Below, in pieces: positions 9,394-40,729 of a stretch of 64,000 nucleotides of DNA. A program made the translations under genes and the position numbers. Origin of the DNA: Dermatophagoides farinae (taxonomy: Eukaryota > Arthropoda > Arachnida > Sarcoptiformes > Pyroglyphidae); contig NC_134677.1 of the NCBI RefSeq assembly GCF_024713945.1, positions 3,785,001 to 3,849,000 on the forward strand, read 5' to 3'. Numbering within the stretch: the first letter of the stretch is position 1; every line of letters starts with the position of its first letter. The notes beneath the pieces were generated by a model. The model was not told where the DNA came from. It searched no databases and was given only the letters and a program-made list of their open reading frames with translations.

Positions 9394-12092
9394 AGTTTGA
9401 ATATATATCTGGCTTAGTCTTATAATATGGTAACAGCTGTTCAGCTATAGTATAGTTTTCCCCTATTAAAAACAATTATTTCCCTCTTTTTTCAAAATAT
9501 ATTTGTTGTTGTTGTAATACAAAACTTGTGGACCTTCTGTTTCATCATCATCATCAACATCATCATGATTTTTTTCTAATTTTTTGGTTTTTCATTCTCT
9601 CTCTTCTTCAAATCTTAAATGGTTGAGCAGCTGGCGCATGTCGTACAATTTTACATACACACAAATATACATTCGGACAATGTACAATTGGATCGAATTT
9701 GGATTTCGTTCAGCTTGTTACGCTAGCTAGCTAGGTCCTTTTTTCTGTCGGCTGTTCATCAAGAAAAAATTATGTGAATGAAACGATCGATCTATGAATG
9801 AAGCTAAATAAAACAGGATAGAGGGGTCACATATATCTAGAGACGCGTGCTGACACGTGCTTTGTCCTTTTCAAAATATGAATGAGCCAATCGGATGGAT
9901 TGATTTGTGACAATGAAAGATCTAGATTTAGAACGAAGGAAGAGGGCAATAAACATGGGGAAGGCCATATGTCCAAAGCCAAAAGATACCAAAAACCATT
10001 CACACAAACACAAATCGGTTGTAGTTTTTGATTTGGGTCTCATAAGCCCAAACTTCCTTGTCAATTCATTTCAATTCAAGACGAGACAAGACCACTGATC
10101 CCTGCTGTGCTACACGCGTTAGATTTTTAGCGTTAATACATCATTTCGGTTATGTTTCACGGGTTTCATAGGGCGTGTCTGTTTGTGCATCCTGACAATG
10201 TCATTTAAACAATGAGAACGGAAATGGATTTTTTTACCCGATATCTTTCACACTTGGCCAGAAAAAAACAATGAATATTGTCACATGAACAATATAAAAG
10301 CATATTATATTGATGAAAAATATTCATTGTTGTTCATCATTTTGAGCCGGGAATTCAAAAATTTTCTCAATGCTTAAAATTTTTTTTTTTCGTTCAACCA
10401 TTTGACATTGATGTCGCTGCGATCGAAAATTTTAAACATTTCTAGCATGGTCTATTTGTCTTTCAAAACGGAAATCGACGGAAGGATTTTTTTTGTTGTT
10501 GCTTTATCCGGCCATCGCATTTCAGTTCATTTTGTTCCATTTGAATTTACGCATGTTCGGTTATTTCAGTAGTGGTAGTAGCAGTAAGAATAGCAGTAGT
10601 TCATAGTATTTAGGAATAATTTTTTTTTTGTTTGACCATTATCATTATCATCATCATCCACCGAAAGCTTATTCTCATTGATGATGCTCGATGATGGCTC
10701 CTTGGTTGTAGATATATATACACACACACCTGGCCAATACACACCACACACGTGCATGCATAGAGTCATTTGGCCATTTTTTTTTATTGTTGGAACCCTT
10801 CCCTCCTTCTCTTATATGTTTTTTTTCTGGTTCATTCACATGTAATGCTTCTACTGTTTTTCATTCTTTCTTTGTTACTGAATTGCCTGAACCAAAACCA
10901 GAAGTAGTTGATACACAAACACACACACACACACAAGTAAAGTATATGAATATTTTTTTTCATGTATTTTCTGCGCCGATGTGCGTGTATGTCAGTGTTC
11001 CAGAAACAAAACACAAAAAGTACCAATGCTAGGACCCTCGCTGTACTTACTTATGTTTGTATGAATGGATCGATTCAAGCTGGCAGGGTAGTTATAAAAA
11101 AGGAAACGGCACATCATCGAATGACGTTATTGCCTATTATGCTTGCATACAATGAACATCATCATATATGATTTCGTATCATATTCAAAAAAAAAATCTT
11201 TTGAATATTTCTCGTTCGACATCATATTTATTCATCTATATTTGCTTATCTCCGTTCTTAAGATATATGGAAAACGATGTGTAAAAATTTGGTATTTTGA
11301 CATGCATCTACGACAACGATATTGCAAATATCAACCGAACATATAATAACAACAACGATTATGAATGTTGTTTTTGATCCAAACGAAATAAAAATGCTGT
11401 TATACAAATTATTTTCAAATCAGCAATATTTGTTTATGATTTTCAAATGTTATCATTACCATTTTTTTTTCTTTTTCCCGACATCAATCTATATTAATGA
11501 AACGAAAAGTTCAGTTAACATTCATTCGTACCGATCGACTGACCGACCGACCGACACATACAGAGAGTACCAATATTTTGGATACTTGGCCATGAAGAAA
11601 AATGAAGACAAAAAAAAAGAAGAAAAAGTTGAATGATGAAGATGAAGATGAAGACAAATCGAATTGGGCTTTCAATAATCCCCATATGGCTATGTTCTGG
11701 TTTGTTATTTGTTTGTTTTTTATCTGATCCATTAATTTTCATTAATATCAACGTTTTTATATACATGATACATATTCAATCATATTTTTTGTTGTATATA
11801 AATATAAGATTCGATCGATTTTAGTCAATATTTTTATTTAGTAGAATCACACACACGTCACATTCTGTAGTCATGAAATTTAAGTTTGCTGAAAATGATG
11901 AAAAAAAACTGGATAACGGATCCAATGTTATTTTTAATATTTGCATGTATTTCATTCGTTATATTTTTTTTCTTGGTATAGTTAGTTGTTTTTATCTTCA
12001 TTCATTTCTTCATTTATTTTTGCTTGCTTGCATCCAAAAGAAAATTACGGAATTCTCTCCTATTTATTGAATGTTCCATCATGTTCACTCTG

Positions 12093-12583: not shown

Positions 12584-12685
12584 AGGCTGATACTCTCCGT
12601 GTTCACTGTTTGCCTGAATGTTATCGTAAACCGAAATATGAATTGAAACGCATAAGGCACGCGGTGAATGCCAAGAGTTGATGCT
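12584..12685 (+). ncRNA. mir-124: mir-124 precursor hairpin
   Basis: Primary precursor of miR-124, the deeply conserved, mainly neuronal microRNA of bilaterians. The mature 3p arm is at 12653-12675. It begins TAAGGCACGCGGTGAATGCC and carries the seed AAGGCAC at 12654-12660; from memory it equals the fly miR-124-3p. The 5p arm, about 12598-12620, contains GTGTTCAC and TTGCCTGAA, which pair with GTGAA and AAGGCA of the 3p arm. The loop is about 12622-12650. The lower stem continues with ACTCT (12592-12596) against AGAGT (12674-12678). The precursor is on the plus strand. An open frame crosses it on the minus strand, but it reads through the hairpin and is not a gene. The host transcript, promoter and poly(A) site are not visible. 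The identity is firm; the exact hairpin ends are approximate. Confidence 0.95.
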
Positions 12686-14085
12686 ATAATTACATCATTT
12701 GTTACGACTGGAATAATGAAGAAATGGAAGGAAAACAAAAACAAATCGATTATCGATTGATGATCATTGGTTATGTAAGATATGAGAAAAGAAATTGATA
12801 AAAAATTTATTTTTTCGATTAGATTCGAAATCGATCCAATCACCTGGTTCTATTAGTTTCAGTTGTAATATAAAAATATGAATAAAATTAAAGAATTTTC
12901 TTTTCTTATTTTCATTCAGAATAATTATTCCATGATGAATTGACATGATGAGAAAATAACTTTTCTTATTTCGTTTTAGATATTATAAATGAATGATAAT
13001 AAAACATATATTGTGATCGGACGATGTTGCTCATTGTATAATAAAATCGAAGCTAATGATTTGAACCATTTATTGCTTATAATCATAATGATGATGAGTA
13101 TTCATCAATTTATAGCTCTACATATATATAAATGTTGCTTATATATTTAGTTTATCATTCGAAGAGAAAAAAAATTTGAAGACCATAGACGGCAACATTC
13201 TTTTATTCATCATTGTCATTGGCCTTGATAGGTTAATTTCATACTGACTAAAAAAAAAATTGTGAATAAAATAAAAGCATGTATATGAATATGTGACTAG
13301 AAAAAATTCAATTGACAAGGCAAAAAAAAATTTATCAACCTTCAAATGAACCGAATAATAATCCTCTATAATGTTTTTTTTTCCACATTACTATTTATTA
13401 TCCACCACCATTAAACCAAAGAATCTTTTCATCGTTTTGTTTTGTTTTTGCTGCTGCTGTTGTTTTTATATTTATTTTTTTTTCAAATTTACACACCATT
13501 ATCATAGTAGTAATAAGTGAAAGCTTAATATTCTATTGCTGATTAGCATTCGATTAAACACCATTGTGTATGTGTGTGTTTTGTGAAATTATTATCATTT
13601 TTATTAGTATGGAACACATATACAAAAAAAAGATCTCAAAAAAAATAATATTCGTTTCCCGAATATAACAGAAAAAAAAACAACGAAAAAGAAAAATTGC
13701 AATGCAAAGAACGGGACATATCCGATCAAATTAGACTCAAGTCACGTACACCACACACACACACACACACATTGCGTCCATTTATTCAATCGTGTTCATT
13801 TGTGTGTGTCCATTTTCGTTTATTTTTTTTTCTCGAAAAAAACGGATTCCTTCTCTTTTTTTTACAAAGAAAATATAAAATTGCACATCCGATTGGAAAT
13901 TTTGTTCGATTCTTCTAAGGAACGTTTGACAATATATAACAAAAATTGAGAAAGAAAAATTGTAGAATTTTTAATAATTTTTCTTTTCTTTTTTTTTATT
14001 TTAAAGCTTGTTTATTATGTCTTTCTCTATGTTTTTTTTTTATTCTCTCGTTGACAAATGACGTGGGCCGTATTATCGTATCTGT

Positions 14086-16214: not shown

Positions 16215-16468
16215 TGCAATCTAATCAAATTGAAGTTTTGCCTCTTTTTTATTTTTCTTTGTTTTCAAAACCTCGAAAACTAAAAAAAAAAAAAATCTTG
16301 AAATCGAAATTCTTGAGCTACATATACCAAACAGACATACAGACACACACACACATACATGACTTATTCATTTTTCATAGGGCCACTATCATCATTTTCA
16401 TGACGATGCTAAATTTTGGTTCGATCGAATTGTGAATACCGAGTTGGCGCAATGTAAAACGAAAATTT

Positions 16469-16471
<3 letters not shown>

Positions 16472-16509
<38 letters not shown>
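16472..16509. repeat. (ATC)n microsatellite
   Basis: A run of about 12-13 ATC units, one of the longest trinucleotide runs here. In one frame it gives poly-Ser. Confidence 0.9.
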
Positions 16510-17941
16510 ACAAAAACCATCCCTTTGTCTATCGCTCTCTCTTTCTGTAACTTTAGATATGTAGCTGCCTTTGGAACTTTTTTTTTGTTGTTTTGTTTTG
16601 TTTCGAATGGATAGCTATAGGAATTGAACTAGCAGAATCTCTGGCTATGAGGAACAGAATCAAGCTGAGTTGTTACCATTTTGATATTGAACTTTAGAAA
16701 AAAGAAGCAAGGGATGTGTGTGCTGTTTCTGAATGCATTGTGTGGTTGCATAATGGCCATAGTCATGATGATGATGATGATGATGGCGCTAGAATCGTTG
16801 TATCCGAGGCATTTTCAAAGATTTTGATAACATCTCTCATATACCATGGATTTCTAAAAAGCAAAATGAGTATATGTGTCTTTATAATGTCGACTGAAAA
16901 AAAGAAGAAAAATATCGTCAGCACGGCAAATCCACCACCACCACCACCACTATAGGGAAAAAAATGTTTCGTTTTTATGTATGCCATCATCATCATTGAA
17001 TTTGTTTCTGGTAATATATTTGAGATGCTTGCTCTTACTCATGGCTGGTGTGTGTTGACTCATGGCTTCATCTTCCTCTCGTTTCCTTTTTTTATTTCAT
17101 CTTTTCTTTAGTTTAAGAAAAAAAAAAAGAAAACATGGGGTAGTTTTTGTGTATATACAAGAGAAAAAAAATTGGATCGATTTATACCCCCTGTCCTTTA
17201 CCACCGTTGTTCGTTTCCAAAATATACAAAAAATAGTTTACCAATTTTGTTGTGTGTGTGTGTGTGTGTGTTTGGATCCAATGAAGCTTTCGTTCTTAAC
17301 ATTTGGATACACAGAATTCATGTGTATGTGTGTATGAATGGTACCAATGATGAAGGGAATTTTTTTTTCTTTTTTCCTATTATTATATTCGACATATATG
17401 AGGGTATATAACATTCAAAGCTAATATATTGAATGACTGGGTTGGCTGATTTCAAATCGTCAATTTTGGATCAATGGCGTCAGTCTCGTCAACATACCTC
17501 TCTCTCTCTCTCTTTCTTTGCCTTATTCGTATTTGGCAATCTCATTTTTTCCCATTACGTGCCACATGTAACAGTTAACATAAACAGCAGAAGCAATAGA
17601 CGAATGAGAGAAAAAAAAAGAAAATTCCGTCAATATTATCCAGTCAAGTAAGCAAGCAGTCAAAAAAAAAAAAATGCTATTATACAAGAATATTATAATT
17701 TTTTTTCTGAATTCTTCAATTATTGGTATGTTTTGGTTAGTAACCTTCAAAATATTCACCAATATCTGTTATACAGAGTAATACAATACCAAAAAAAAAT
17801 TAATTGAATGAAAAAATAAAAGAATACAATACCAAGAAAAAAAACCTAGTATACATCACATTGAAATAAAAACAATAGCATACAAACACAATGAACCAAT
17901 TGTGAACAAACGTACAAATGGGTAATATAAACAACAACCAA

Positions 17942-24362: not shown

Positions 24363-26841
24363 TGACAGATGTCATCATACATATACAAAAACATTTACCA
24401 GTACAAAAGAATTTATTCGTCGAATCAAAATGAATTTATTGTTGAAAATGGAAATGATGATGATGATGATGACGAAATACAGTGTGAAGCAACAAAAAAA
24501 ACGGCCATAACGAATCGTATTTTTTAATTAAAAAAATTACTATCTTTATTGTTTGTTACAGGAAAACATAAGCATCGCTATTTTTTTTTTACAGGCGTCA
24601 GCAAATCAACTTGAAATACTAACAAAAAATTTTTTTTTCACATATACAATCATTAACGATGAATTCTATATATATAATTGATAACGACTAATGTGTAATG
24701 AACGAAGAGAGAAAAATTTCATTCGATTCTGATTGGATACAAATTAAAAATAACAGTATTACAAAAATGCCATACATATGTATTGTTATTGTCAATATAC
24801 ATTCACATACTATCAATCAGGTCTCAAATCCAATCATCTTCATCGGTGCCAGCAAGGTTGCGACATTTGGTAACAAGAAAAAGTTAGAATTAAAAGGAAA
24901 TCAAATATTTTTTTTTGTTTGCTTCAATCACCGACAATCGAATCATATCGTGATGATTCGATGCTGGCAAATAGTTTACCACCATATGGTGAGAATCAAT
25001 GAATGAATTGGAAATCTGTGTATTGTGATTTACCTTGAAGATAATGATGATCAAAAGAAAAGCAAGAAAACCGTTAAATTTTGCCAACTGTTATAAATTA
25101 ATAATTGGAATTGACTATTGAAAGCAATGGCAAAGTTTTTTGCACTTTGATTGTATACAATACAATATTGCGTTCATTAAAAGAAAAAGTTACGAATACA
25201 ATTCGATATGTTTTTCAATTCTTTTTGTCATCATATATGATTTTATTGAATATATATTATGATTCATAGAATTTGTGTCAAATCAAATAACCGGATTGGA
25301 ATATTGAAACTTGAATTTGATCAATGTAGTAATGGTCTAGTGAACATTTATTTTCAATGATATTTTAATGGAACAAGAAAAGTTATTCCAAGATTGACTG
25401 TAACAATATTTTCAATAAAGTAAAACAAATTAATAAGGCATTTATTGTTAACATCAAAATAAAAATTCCTTAAAAACTTTTAATATTGTGTAATGAATCG
25501 AATCTGTCCACTTGAATGAATTTCGATGGCGATAAAAATCCTTTTTAAAGTTTAGATCAATCATCATCATTGGTCGTCATGTATGCAGGGAAAAGAAGGT
25601 GGCCATGATCATATTTCAAAAATCTGAAATATAATAAAAAAAAAATTTTCATCTTGATTCTTGATTTTTCTACTTAGTTGAATGAAAAACTTCTTGGCAT
25701 TCTTGTGTGTGTGTGTGTGTATGTAATGTATAGCGGTATTCAGGTTCACAATCGTAACGACCTCGAACAAAAATGGTGATAACAAGAAAGTTGTTATCGG
25801 TCGATATGAAGCTTCGATTGTTGTTTGTTGTAAGTCCAATCGTTTTATGATTCATGACCATGTATTTTCCACCTGGTCTTGGCCAATTTGATGGTTTCCA
25901 TCCCAAAAATGTTTGGAGGAAATGGAAATAAAATTTCTCTTTTACGATGTCCTTTACAGGACACATTACATGTATGTGTTTTTTGTTTTGTAATTTTCAT
26001 CAAATTTTGAACACTCAGCATCACTGATACTTGGATTTTATTTTTTTATGATGATGCTACATAATATGAAAATTCTGAACTGATTTTTTCTCTTTGGGTT
26101 CGCAGTTTGCAATATTTTTTTTCTCTCTCTTGTGTTTGTTTGATCAGATTTTGATCGATTTTTATCGTTGTCAGCAAAATTTTTTTTTCACTCTCATTAT
26201 TTGTGTTATGGGTGTGTCTTCTGGTTGAATTGAATGGCCTAAAATTTTTCTCTAAAAAAAATATTCATTGGAATTTTATATTATCTTGTAATATTTAACA
26301 TTTTGTTTTTTATTTGATTTGTTTTTGAATTTCCTGTCAAATTCAAAATCTTAAAGAAAAATGATGATGATGATAATATAAATGTGAAAAAACTGGCTAA
26401 CCGAAAGGCGTCAAAATTCCATGTCATTTGTGTACGGGCAAAATAAACTTCGAATTTAATGTTTTTCTTTTTTTTACTCGTTTTTTTTTCGTTAACAATA
26501 TTCGAAAATTTATAGAATTTCATTGTTCGACTATTATAATAATGACAACAATGTGTATTGGTACCATTATTTGGCATCATTTTGACATTTTTTTTCTAAA
26601 TTTTGAAACATTTCATTTTTTCGAATACTTTGCCTCATAACCGTTATATTTTTTTGTGAGTAATATTAATATTATGACTAGTTATATTTATGGAAAAATC
26701 CTTTTTTTTCTCAGTAGTATAACAAGCAGGAAAAAGAAGCAGTCAATTTAGTGAAATAAAACTTGTGATTCCATTTTTTTCTCCATCATTGGTGTTGCTG
26801 CATTGCATTGTTGTCTTTCGTTCTCTCCGGAATACATCGGC

Positions 26842-36713: not shown

Positions 36714-38225
36714 CTAGCAAAGACTTTCATTATAATGCGGACAATAAACAATGGGTGATGAATAACGATTCAACATTTGTTGTGTCATAGCTTCATATTG
36801 TTCCATGCTTACATGTATACATGGTGACATACGATTACGCATCTGCATGATTGCATCCTGTACTTCAGTCGATATATCCTCTTTGAATCTTAAACGTTCC
36901 TTAATACGATTTCTTAGGCCAATTTTTAATTGAAATATGAATAGATAACCAGCCGAAGTAGCCAACAACAATAAAAGTATTAGTCCAATATTTGAAATGA
37001 ATGCCAATATACAGAATAATACAAAATTAACAATAGTAACAAATATGAGTAATGTTAGATTTTTTCTTATTACACCAATCAATCCTAGTACTTGATTCAA
37101 TACTGTCACAAACAATAATGTCAATGCAATCACTTCAATGATTAACATACGATTTTCATTTCCGGTTCTCTGATGATTAAGATTATTGAAACGTTTATCG
37201 ACGGATATTGTCGCCAATCGTTGTCGACTTGCTTGTAATGATTCTTCATCATTCGATCTACTACTACTACTGTAGAATATATCATCTTCTTCATTCAGAT
37301 CTTGACGATCTTTTGTTCGTGCATAATTATCGAAATTAGCAAATATTTTCGGATAGGATTTTGTATCATCATCACCATCAAGCTGATTTCTTCCATCAAG
37401 ATTCATTCTATCCGATGAATCATATGTTGGTGGCTGTGGTTTAGGTACCGGATATTGATGATAAAATTCATCAAGTAATGAAAGAAATGAACTACGATCA
37501 CAATGATATATTTGTTCATTGCTACCGAGATGCTTCGATAATGGTCGATGATTGATCGTGCCATAAGGACCACCATGTTGAACTATATTTCGATCACGGC
37601 CAATATTAAATGTGGATGCTGATAGATAATTGTTCGGTGCATAATTATTGTTATCAAGTGAATAATATTGTCCATTTATAAGTTCTTGTCGATGATGTAC
37701 ATCTAAAAACATTGAACCAATTGACATATTTGATCCATAAAATATGAAATGTATAAAAGTATTGATGATCAATGTTATCAATACTAATATATAAACCATA
37801 AATAGATAATATCTTGCACAAGCATAATAACTTGTCAGAACGGACAATTCTTCATTCTGTATTTGTTGTTGTCGTTGTAGATTTGTATTTATGATGACGT
37901 TAGATGGCTGTAATGATGCATTATTATTATTAATCTCTGTTGTTGCCATATTTGCAGTCGATCCAGTTCTGCCAATATTTGATTTATTATTATTGTTGCT
38001 GTTGTTGTTGTTTGAAACATTGTTGGTCATAATATTAGGTGTTGATGATGATGTTGATGACATCATCATTCTGACATTACTACTACTGATATTATTATTT
38101 TGTCGTGCTTTTGGCAATGGTGGTGGTTCTTGATGTATCAATGTTGAAATATTCGCATCACCATCCTTATAATCACGACTAATTATGATTGGATCAATTG
38201 TTGATTGATTCGAAGCTTTTAACAT
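36714..38225 (-). CDS. Four-helix (tetraspan-like) membrane protein, unrecognised family
   Basis: Single coding exon of 503 codons from ATG at 38225. The N-terminus (1-125) is cytosolic-looking and rich in Asn/Ser. A first helix lies at about 141-163 and a large polar loop at 164-358. Three closely packed helices follow at about 361-384, 390-412 and 413-433, then a basic and polar tail. The loop is acidic and Tyr/Asp-rich with few cysteines and no CCG motif, so it is not a classical tetraspanin. The stretch LNQVLGLIGVIRK (376-388) matches LNQTLAVYGLFKE in the divergent neighbour at 39563, with the same 1+3 helix layout. An acceptor-like TGCAG lies 8 nt before the ATG; a plausible 5'UTR exon upstream carries an in-frame stop, which supports this start. 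I do not recognise a described family. A membrane location is supported; function is unknown. Confidence 0.85.
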   Translation of the reverse strand: MLKASNQSTIDPIIISRDYKDGDANISTLIHQEPPPLPKARQNNNISSSNVRMMMSSTSSSTPNIMTNNVSNNNNSNNNNKSNIGRTGSTANMATTEINNNNASLQPSNVIINTNLQRQQQIQNEELSVLTSYYACARYYLFMVYILVLITLIINTFIHFIFYGSNMSIGSMFLDVHHRQELINGQYYSLDNNNYAPNNYLSASTFNIGRDRNIVQHGGPYGTINHRPLSKHLGSNEQIYHCDRSSFLSLLDEFYHQYPVPKPQPPTYDSSDRMNLDGRNQLDGDDDTKSYPKIFANFDNYARTKDRQDLNEEDDIFYSSSSRSNDEESLQASRQRLATISVDKRFNNLNHQRTGNENRMLIIEVIALTLLFVTVLNQVLGLIGVIRKNLTLLIFVTIVNFVLFCILAFISNIGLILLLLLATSAGYLFIFQLKIGLRNRIKERLRFKEDISTEVQDAIMQMRNRMSPCIHVSMEQYEAMTQQMLNRYSSPIVYCPHYNESLC

Positions 38226-38401
38226 TGAAACATCTGCATGTAGTAAATTATTAAAAAATGGTTAGAATAAACAATAACTTAAACATTACCAAACTTGAAT
38301 TTATTGTTTTGATTTGTTCAACTTGGCGATGTCCTTAAAAGAATATCACATTATGATTAAGATGACGATGTCGTTTTTTTTTCTCGATTCACGCATCTCT
38401 A

Positions 38402-38441
<40 letters not shown>

Positions 38442-39562
38442 TGGTTGTTGATGATGAGGATGATGAATATTTAACCAAAGTAAGATTTGTGCATACAACA
38501 ACAACAAAAACTGTTGCTTGGTAATTCGTCGTCTTTGGGATATTTTGTCATGCATAATGACAACAACAACAACAACATCAGCATCGGTGGAATTCATGCC
38601 TCAATATAATGGCCACATCTATGTTGTTCCAATCCCTCTCCCGCTAAAACCTTACTCTCAATAGCATAACATCTAAAAATAGTACCCTTCTCACTTTTTC
38701 TTATTCTTAGATTATTACTCAAATACAAATCAATATTTGGGACTCCGAATTTTTTCTTTTGAATAATTGTTCTTCACGATCATCATCGATTTCCGATATT
38801 CAATTTATTTATCATTAAAAAATTCATTCATCTATTAGTCAAACATGTGTGTTATGGTACATTCTTTAAACAATTCGTTTAGTCTGGAATTCATTTTTAA
38901 CTGTTGAATACAGGAAGTAAATTTTATTTCTTGCTGTAATGATGATGTCGTTTTTTTATGAATGAAGATTATGATTACTTTGTGTTCATTCTGTGAATCA
39001 TAAATATAAAAGTTATATTTAGATTTAAATGTTTTTCTAGTTTATTTTTCATTATTTACATTGCATTCATATGCACACAAACGCTAGCAGTAAACGATGA
39101 TGTTGTCTATCCATAATTACCATTCAGAATTACATTGCCTTCTATCATTTATTCTCTTCATTCAATGAATTTTTCGTTTTCCATACGATTCTTTACAATT
39201 TCACCATTTGTTCGAAATAGAGGAAAAAATGTTTTTATGTAATTCTCAAAGCAATTGAATCTTTTGCTTTTCAGCATTCATCAGCAAAAACTTAAATTCT
39301 TTGTTCGTGCCAATTTCATGCGTCTTCCATTTCATGTGTTTGCAATGTTGATTGAGAAATTTTAATAGCATAAACACATGCGGACACCATTCACTATTAT
39401 CATCACAAACATACAGGCATCAAATTGGTATTAAAGCCCTGTTAAAGTTATATCTATCCATTTGATTTGATTCATTAATTCCAATCAATCCAATCGATAA
39501 ATGAATGATCGATCTGCACATTTGTCTCAGCTAATTTATTGATTGATTGGTTCAAATGATTG
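38226..39562. promoter_or_regulatory. Divergent intergenic interval between two tetraspan-like genes
   Basis: About 1.3 kb between two start codons on opposite strands, so it probably holds both promoters. It contains a (CT)n run of about 16 units at 38405-38438 and otherwise AT-rich sequence. A likely 5'UTR intron of the minus gene occupies its left edge: acceptor TGCAG just upstream of the ATG, and donor-like GTAATG about 55 nt further out. No specific factor sites can be named. Confidence 0.4.
38405..38438. repeat. (CT)n microsatellite
   Basis: A CT run of about 16 units inside the interval between the divergent membrane-protein genes. Seen from the minus gene it is a GA tract upstream of the start, a position where GA-rich promoter elements occur in arthropods. 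A promoter role is only a possibility. Confidence 0.85.
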
Positions 39563-40729
39563 ATGAAAAGTATGATGAGAACCAATCAACAAACCAGTGA
39601 TTATGCATTGTCATATTGTCGGGATGGTATTGGATCGACATCAGCAGCATCAGCTATTGGTGCTGAATATTCTAGACATCAACAACGGAATCTTTTCCAA
39701 TTAATTAGCCGTAATTCTATGCCATTTCAAATTGTCAAATATGTATTGCTCATCCTTAACATAATGATAGTTGCAACCACAGCCATAGTCACCATAATCG
39801 TATGTCTATTGCCAACAATAATCTATGAGAAGAAATTAGCTTTGGATAATGCAAGTGCATTTCTCAAAACTGGAAATCTACAACAGCAACAGCAATTGAA
39901 TTATGATCGGCGATCATTGGATGAACATGAATTGATCCAATTATCAGCACAAGAAATCGATACGATCCGTTTGGTTCGATATTTCATCTTAGCATTATCA
40001 TCATTAATCATACTGAATCAAACATTGGCTGTATATGGCTTGTTTAAAGAACGATCATTTAACATATTGATTAGTACCGTAGTCATTGGATTGATTGGCC
40101 AATTAAGCTTATTTGTATTACCGGCAAGCATATTCATATTGATAACCATTTATTTAATTTTCAGCATTAGCTATGTTATTATATTAAATCATCTGAATCT
40201 AATGGTACGTGAACCTCAAATACGTCAACAAGTGACATCAAGAGCACCATCGATAGAACCATCACAACGAACTTGTTGCTGTCGATGTAAATCCTGCCAA
40301 TGTATGAATGTAATGACAAATCAATCAGTTGGATCTGCGATCATTGACAATGTACTTGTAAATCGAAAAGCATCGATTCATACAAATCACTTACCACAGC
40401 CGTCTTCTTCGTCATATCCAAATAATCAAGTTCCATATTACTATGGATCATTAGGCCGTGGTAAATCTCGTAATGCAGAATTAAGACCCGGTTCGATTAA
40501 TCAATCAACATCTGTGGCCAACAGTGAAAATATCTACGCACAGCGACCACCAATTCATCATCATTCGCATTCACGAAGTCCAGGACTACGTCCGACCAAT
40601 AAATGTTCTAATATGAATCTAGTCGACACCATTTCAGGTGGTTTCCAATCACGAAAAGAAATGACACCCACGCCAACAACAACAAATTATTTTGCCTTTG
40701 AAATGTCCAAAGATACTGATATTATATGA
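39563..40729 (+). CDS. Four-helix (tetraspan-like) membrane protein, paralogue of the divergent neighbour
   Basis: Single coding exon of 388 codons; ATG 39563 is in frame (a TTG precedes it). A short ATG-initiated frame at 39556 overlaps it and could act as an upstream ORF. Helices lie at about 58-84, 139-161, 166-187 and 188-208, with a short loop (85-137) holding a Gln run. The tail is long and cytosolic-looking: Cys-rich CCCRCKSCQC at 238-247, a possible palmitoylation or metal-binding cluster, then a Ser/Pro/His-rich region with ENIYAQRPP. LNQTLAVYGLFKE (151-163) matches LNQVLGLIGVIRK of the minus-strand protein, both at the end of helix 2, and spacing to helices 3 and 4 is alike. The two look like diverged paralogues arranged head to head. 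I do not recognise the family and assign no function. Confidence 0.85.
   Translation: MKSMMRTNQQTSDYALSYCRDGIGSTSAASAIGAEYSRHQQRNLFQLISRNSMPFQIVKYVLLILNIMIVATTAIVTIIVCLLPTIIYEKKLALDNASAFLKTGNLQQQQQLNYDRRSLDEHELIQLSAQEIDTIRLVRYFILALSSLIILNQTLAVYGLFKERSFNILISTVVIGLIGQLSLFVLPASIFILITIYLIFSISYVIILNHLNLMVREPQIRQQVTSRAPSIEPSQRTCCCRCKSCQCMNVMTNQSVGSAIIDNVLVNRKASIHTNHLPQPSSSSYPNNQVPYYYGSLGRGKSRNAELRPGSINQSTSVANSENIYAQRPPIHHHSHSRSPGLRPTNKCSNMNLVDTISGGFQSRKEMTPTPTTTNYFAFEMSKDTDII

Follow-up and report, generated by a model that had tools for sequence, protein, structure and literature searches.

miR-124 is an ancient small regulatory RNA that is best known from nerve cells. In general, a canonical microRNA derives from a stable hairpin in which at least 16 pairs join the mature strand to the star strand. 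The window analyzed here, which is the whole stretch of 64,000 nucleotides from the astigmatan mite Dermatophagoides farinae, contains a hairpin resembling mir-124 within a long tract of DNA in which no protein gene is recognized. The locus raises the question of whether this hairpin is a genuine mir-124 gene and whether the gene-poor DNA around it belongs to that gene as transcript and control region. The evidence reviewed below makes it almost certain that this is the canonical, apparently single-copy, and probably intergenic mir-124 gene of D. farinae. The product of mir-124 in this mite is already known, and the gene is an ordinary, expected animal microRNA. The published D. farinae small RNA is now tied to one genomic locus.

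The mir-124 Hairpin and Its Family Identity

The Rfam covariance model of mir-124 (RF00239, release 15) matches positions 12591–12679 of the forward strand (C1:3797591–3797679) over its full length (model positions 1–72) with a score of 50.2 bits and an E-value of 2e-8. This score lies only 1.2 bits above the curated cut-off of 49, and no other Rfam match in the window exceeds its curated cut-off. The mite hairpin is like the family in its arm order and in carrying the mature strand on the 3p arm, but its terminal loop is longer than that of the model, with 28 bases where the alignment skips 12 model positions. At 12653 the sequence reads TAAGGCACGCGGTGAATGCCAAG, and its partner is the 5′ arm around 12599–12619. 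The seed AAGGCAC and the mature sequence UAAGGCACGCGGUGAAUGCC, by which the miR-124 family is recognized, are both found on the 3p arm. The arms are joined by 11 contiguous pairs (12599–12609 with 12661–12671) and by 5 more pairs (12611–12615 with 12655–12659), and the duplex of mature and star strands contains 17 pairs in all (12599–12618 with 12653–12671). The mature miR-124-3p occupies 12653–12675 of the forward strand in its 23-nt form. The predicted miR-124-5p, or passenger strand, is placed at 12598–12619 on the same strand, with its ends derived from the pair list and a 2-nt 3′ overhang. A CNNC-type element (CATC, 12693–12696, forward strand) starts 18 nt beyond position 12675, where the 23-nt form ends, and the match to this motif could be chance.

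The 102 bases from 12584 to 12685 fold with −34.2 kcal/mol compared with a mean of −20.78 for shuffled sequences (z −4.69), and 0 of 200 shuffles equal this value. The antisense strand folds worse (−23.5 kcal/mol, z −2.20), with 5 of 200 shuffles as good. The preliminary description had placed the start of a mature miR-124 at 12653 on the grounds of sequence, seed, and pairing, and the RF00239 match and the paired arms bear this out. The fold that it had proposed as a check likewise has two arms that pair.

Published Small RNAs of D. farinae

The mature sequence at 12653 is identical over 23 nt to dfa-miR-124b-3p, which has already been sequenced from D. farinae (PMC10722260 Table 2). The same study reports five miR-124 entries with lengths of 19, 20, 21, 22, and 23 nt and a common 5′ end, and each of the five maps on the forward strand of the window only to 12653. 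The 21-nt form, dfa-miR-124-3p, was found at 1158.29 TPM in mites and makes up 64.5% of the summed 1795.57 TPM, while the 23-nt form makes up 10.9%. All five have this 5′ end, and a single copy was located in the genome; the entries are most simply read as 3′ length forms of one gene, which suggests that the five published names denote length variants. Conserved miRNAs are named in the tables of PMC10722260 by exact miRBase match, and 5′-shifted reads could therefore not appear there. Tables 2 and 3 of that study contain no row for miR-124-5p. The same miR-124 sequences are listed from D. farinae exosomes in the portion of PMC10434197 covered here, a paper that also names BioProject PRJNA945179 for D. 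farinae small-RNA reads. In the parts covered, the two D. farinae reports of dfa-miR-124-3p give no genomic locus, and their five entries compare with one site in the present analysis. Published D. farinae reads of identical sequence suggest that the miR-124 of this gene is expressed as a small RNA. As a test of the locus, small-RNA reads beginning at the miR-124 5′ end had been proposed, and those published (PMC10722260) favor the gene.

Two low-abundance novel D. farinae small RNAs (0.33 and 0.39 TPM; PMC10722260) were compared with the genome, and both match it without mismatch, in keeping with D. farinae as the source; one has a single site and the other has four. An exact match to the D. 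farinae miR-1 sequence is also present, at 5.49 Mb on C1, the contig of the window, but this sequence is too conserved to separate species. The Blo-t-5 family is typical of astigmatan mites. Its Pfam model has three matches over the cut-off in this genome, the best with an E-value of 2.6e-53, and none in 14 control genomes.

Two other published small RNAs deserve mention in their own right. Four exact copies of dfa-novel-miR38 lie at C3:1756906–1756996, C5:1645210–1645233, and C10:1653442–1653465; two of them face each other, their starts separated by 67 bases, and the sequence resembles a hairpin of repeat origin more than it does an ordinary microRNA gene. The published dfa-let-7b (1486.09 TPM; PMC10722260) is the reverse complement of let-7. 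Since the genome contains one let-7 sequence at up to 1 mismatch (C1:3022095–3022116), the listed dfa-let-7b RNA is antisense to let-7, either through transcription of the antisense strand or as an artefact of labelling or of the library.

Copy Number and Partner MicroRNAs

With up to 2 mismatches allowed, the miR-124 20-mer is found once in the genome of 62,435,336 bases; the reversed 20-mer, used as a control, is not found at all. The mir-124 covariance model also finds one place genome-wide, with 59 of 2122 first-look candidates scored. By both searches, mir-124 is apparently single-copy in this genome. The mite is in this respect like Drosophila, in which mir-124 is a single locus with expression in the central nervous system (CNS) (PMC3276548, in part). 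In the spider Parasteatoda three mir-124 copies are reported in the part of PMC4987109 covered here.

That the site is a chance sequence or a dead pseudogene is scarcely credible. About 5e-8 occurrences of an exact 23-mer would be expected by chance at this genome size (29% G+C assumed), and the exact 23-mer is joined here by paired arms, by its being the only copy found, and by published expression in D. farinae. What speaks for chance is that the 20-mer is also found once among bacterial and archaeal genomes, in a Shinella contig, though the fold there carries no hairpin signal and does not stand out from its shuffles, 44 of 200 of which fold as well (z −0.73). There are 0 matches to the 20-mer in viral contigs.

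The preliminary description had recognized no partner microRNA, and this remains so over 104 kb when judged by Rfam cut-offs and by 82 D. farinae queries. The 40 kb left of the window, scanned as four separate 10-kb pieces, contain no Rfam RNA over the curated cut-off. Within the window, 7 further Rfam rows appear at E-values up to 1, all of them below the cut-offs and the best (E 0.016; 10913–10998, reverse strand) within a CA/GT repeat; the number of tRNA genes is 0. The 82 queries were drawn from the 108 small RNAs in Tables 2 and 3 of PMC10722260, after 21 of the 42 entries of Table 2, which were almost all length variants, and 5 simple repeats among the 66 entries of Table 3 had been left out beforehand. 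With up to 3 mismatches they match the 104 kb at miR-124, exactly, and at one further place by a simple-repeat query with 3 mismatches. On a 200-kb control the same queries give 7 matches, each with 3 mismatches. The D. farinae miR-1 and the let-7 sequence mentioned above lie elsewhere on C1 (5.49 and 3.02 Mb).

Neighboring Genes and Extent of the Gene-Poor Tract

The hairpin lies in a tract of about 32 kb without a recognized protein gene, which occupies positions 1–26754 of the window and extends to the left of it to about −5.45 kb (C1:3779548), where the last exon-like frame stands beside exons of 3-hydroxyanthranilate dioxygenase (3-HAO). On the right it is limited by an open reading frame (ORF) at 26755. 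The size of the gap depends on the threshold of the coding scan: with a threshold of 12 bits it is divided into pieces of 21.9 and 10.3 kb by a low-complexity frame (16401–16511), and thresholds of 16 or 20 bits widen it to 37–39 kb because the 3-HAO exons drop out. Simple-sequence repeats make up 10.9% of the bases of the tract, more than twice the 3.9–4.8% in its gene-dense flanks. In a genome search that skipped simple repeats, the 1.1 kb left of the hairpin match only themselves, and the 1.3 kb to its right have two further partial matches of 50 and 56 bases. The hairpin had been described as lying alone in about 26 kb of repeat-rich DNA. It is indeed alone, and the DNA is repeat-rich mainly in simple-sequence repeats, but the length was understated since the tract continues past the left edge of the window.

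To the left of the tract, Pfam names domains in 4 of the 9 frames tested, and the neighbors identified in this way are a pecanex C-terminal domain, a transglutaminase N-terminal domain, and two 3-HAO exons. A guess by eye that the minus-strand left neighbor is macoilin was ruled out, as Pfam assigns one of its frames to pecanex. To the right, within the window, Pfam names domains in 5 of the 10 ORFs tested; the neighbors are an OST3/OST6-like ORF, a ThiF-rhodanese protein, a TMEM62 Ig domain, a nucleoporin (Nup133-like and Nucleoporin_C), and SRP54. The OST3/OST6-like gene at 26755 is on the forward strand and has 462 aa between stops, with a Pfam score of 22.6 bits that is under the cut-off of 27. 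Two long ORFs at 36714–38261 (reverse strand, 515 aa) and 39560–40729 (forward strand, 389 aa) have no Pfam match at an E-value of 0.001 and contain hydrophobic stretches that appear membrane-like by eye.

The OST3/OST6-like gene is the next recognized gene downstream and shares its strand with mir-124, and two weak exon-like frames lie between them on that strand (24417–24518 and 24922–24999). These observations would fit a mir-124 situated in an intron or untranslated region of a protein gene with missed exons, for example if the OST3/OST6-like gene had a further 5′ exon upstream. Such an arrangement is nevertheless very improbable. The OST3/OST6-like gene has its own long single frame, and the two weak frames score near 11 bits, comparable to frames in simple repeats. 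When 20 of the 30 ORFs of at least 90 aa in 1–26700 were given to Pfam, none had a match over the cut-off, 6 of the 20 having sub-threshold matches with E-values of 0.013 to 0.096. The codon-usage scan of the tract found no frames beyond low-complexity or near-threshold ones. An intergenic mir-124 is the preferred reading.

Is the Tract a Transcript and Control Region of mir-124?

The preliminary description had further proposed that the gene-poor DNA may be the miR-124 primary transcript with its neuronal control region. In this view the tract of about 32 kb would be wholly or in large part of this nature and kept gene-free by selection. In its favor, no coding exon is recognized in the tract. 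The mir-124 hairpin is also the strongest single hairpin found on the forward strand of 1–26700 (−30.7 kcal/mol), with a CA/GT microsatellite hairpin on the reverse strand at 10911–11000 being about as strong (−31.0 kcal/mol). Against this stands a control region of 200 kb on another chromosome, C2, in which the same coding scan finds a larger gap of 44.7 kb (C2:2072488–2117223) at all three thresholds of 12, 16, and 20 bits. The 50 kb containing the control gap have no Rfam RNA over the cut-off. In its content of simple repeats the control resembles the tract, with 13.3% in the control gap and 10.6% in the remainder of the 200 kb. The control is a single region and thus a small sample, in which coding gaps may be introns. 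In view of the control gap, a gap of about 32 kb is not clearly exceptional, and its size alone demands no explanation specific to a microRNA. The fly offers a second argument: in Drosophila, 4 kb of DNA upstream of the hairpin were enough for a reporter to reproduce the CNS expression, although the transgene used for rescue measured 19 kb (PMC3276548, in the part covered). We consider it unlikely that the tract is the transcript and control region of miR-124 under such selection, and a little less likely again that the whole 32-kb gap is spanned by a single long non-coding transcript that hosts mir-124 and serves as its neuronal regulatory domain, retained against compaction. The gene-poor DNA around mir-124 is not clearly unusual and needs no special explanation.

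A hairpin at 1956–2045 on the forward strand of the same tract, with −24.6 kcal/mol in 90 nt and no obvious microsatellite, has no Rfam match over the cut-off and is probably due to chance.

Proposed Biogenesis and Function in the Mite

The microRNA pathway comprises a primary transcript, its cropping by Drosha, dicing, the loading of one strand into an Argonaute, and the repression of seed-matched mRNAs. In D. farinae, RNA polymerase II would make the mir-124 primary transcript, which would be cut by Drosha and then by Dicer. An Argonaute would then take up the 3p arm, which begins UAAGGCAC at 12653, and the loaded miR-124-3p would repress mRNAs with GUGCCUU-type sites. By analogy with other animals the site of action may be neurons. 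For the mite we infer the promoter, the extent of the transcript, its processing, neuronal expression, and the targets.

Among other arthropods, ticks express miR-124, and its sequence is reported to be the same as in the fly (PMC3141673, in part). The portions of the main text covered of two Sarcoptes papers (PMC9456212 and PMC5441584) contain 0 occurrences of miR-124, and the part covered of a Varroa paper (PMC8966896) mentions the fly's miR-124 and a reference. The D. farinae genome contains 8 stretches matched to RNase III domains, of which two share a 780-aa frame, and 22 stretches matched to Piwi domains that are pieces of fewer genes; neither type of domain is specific to the microRNA pathway. 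For D. farinae, the part of PMC5805368 covered here describes a close Dicer-1 orthologue and an Ago1 that is likely to act in the miRNA pathway.
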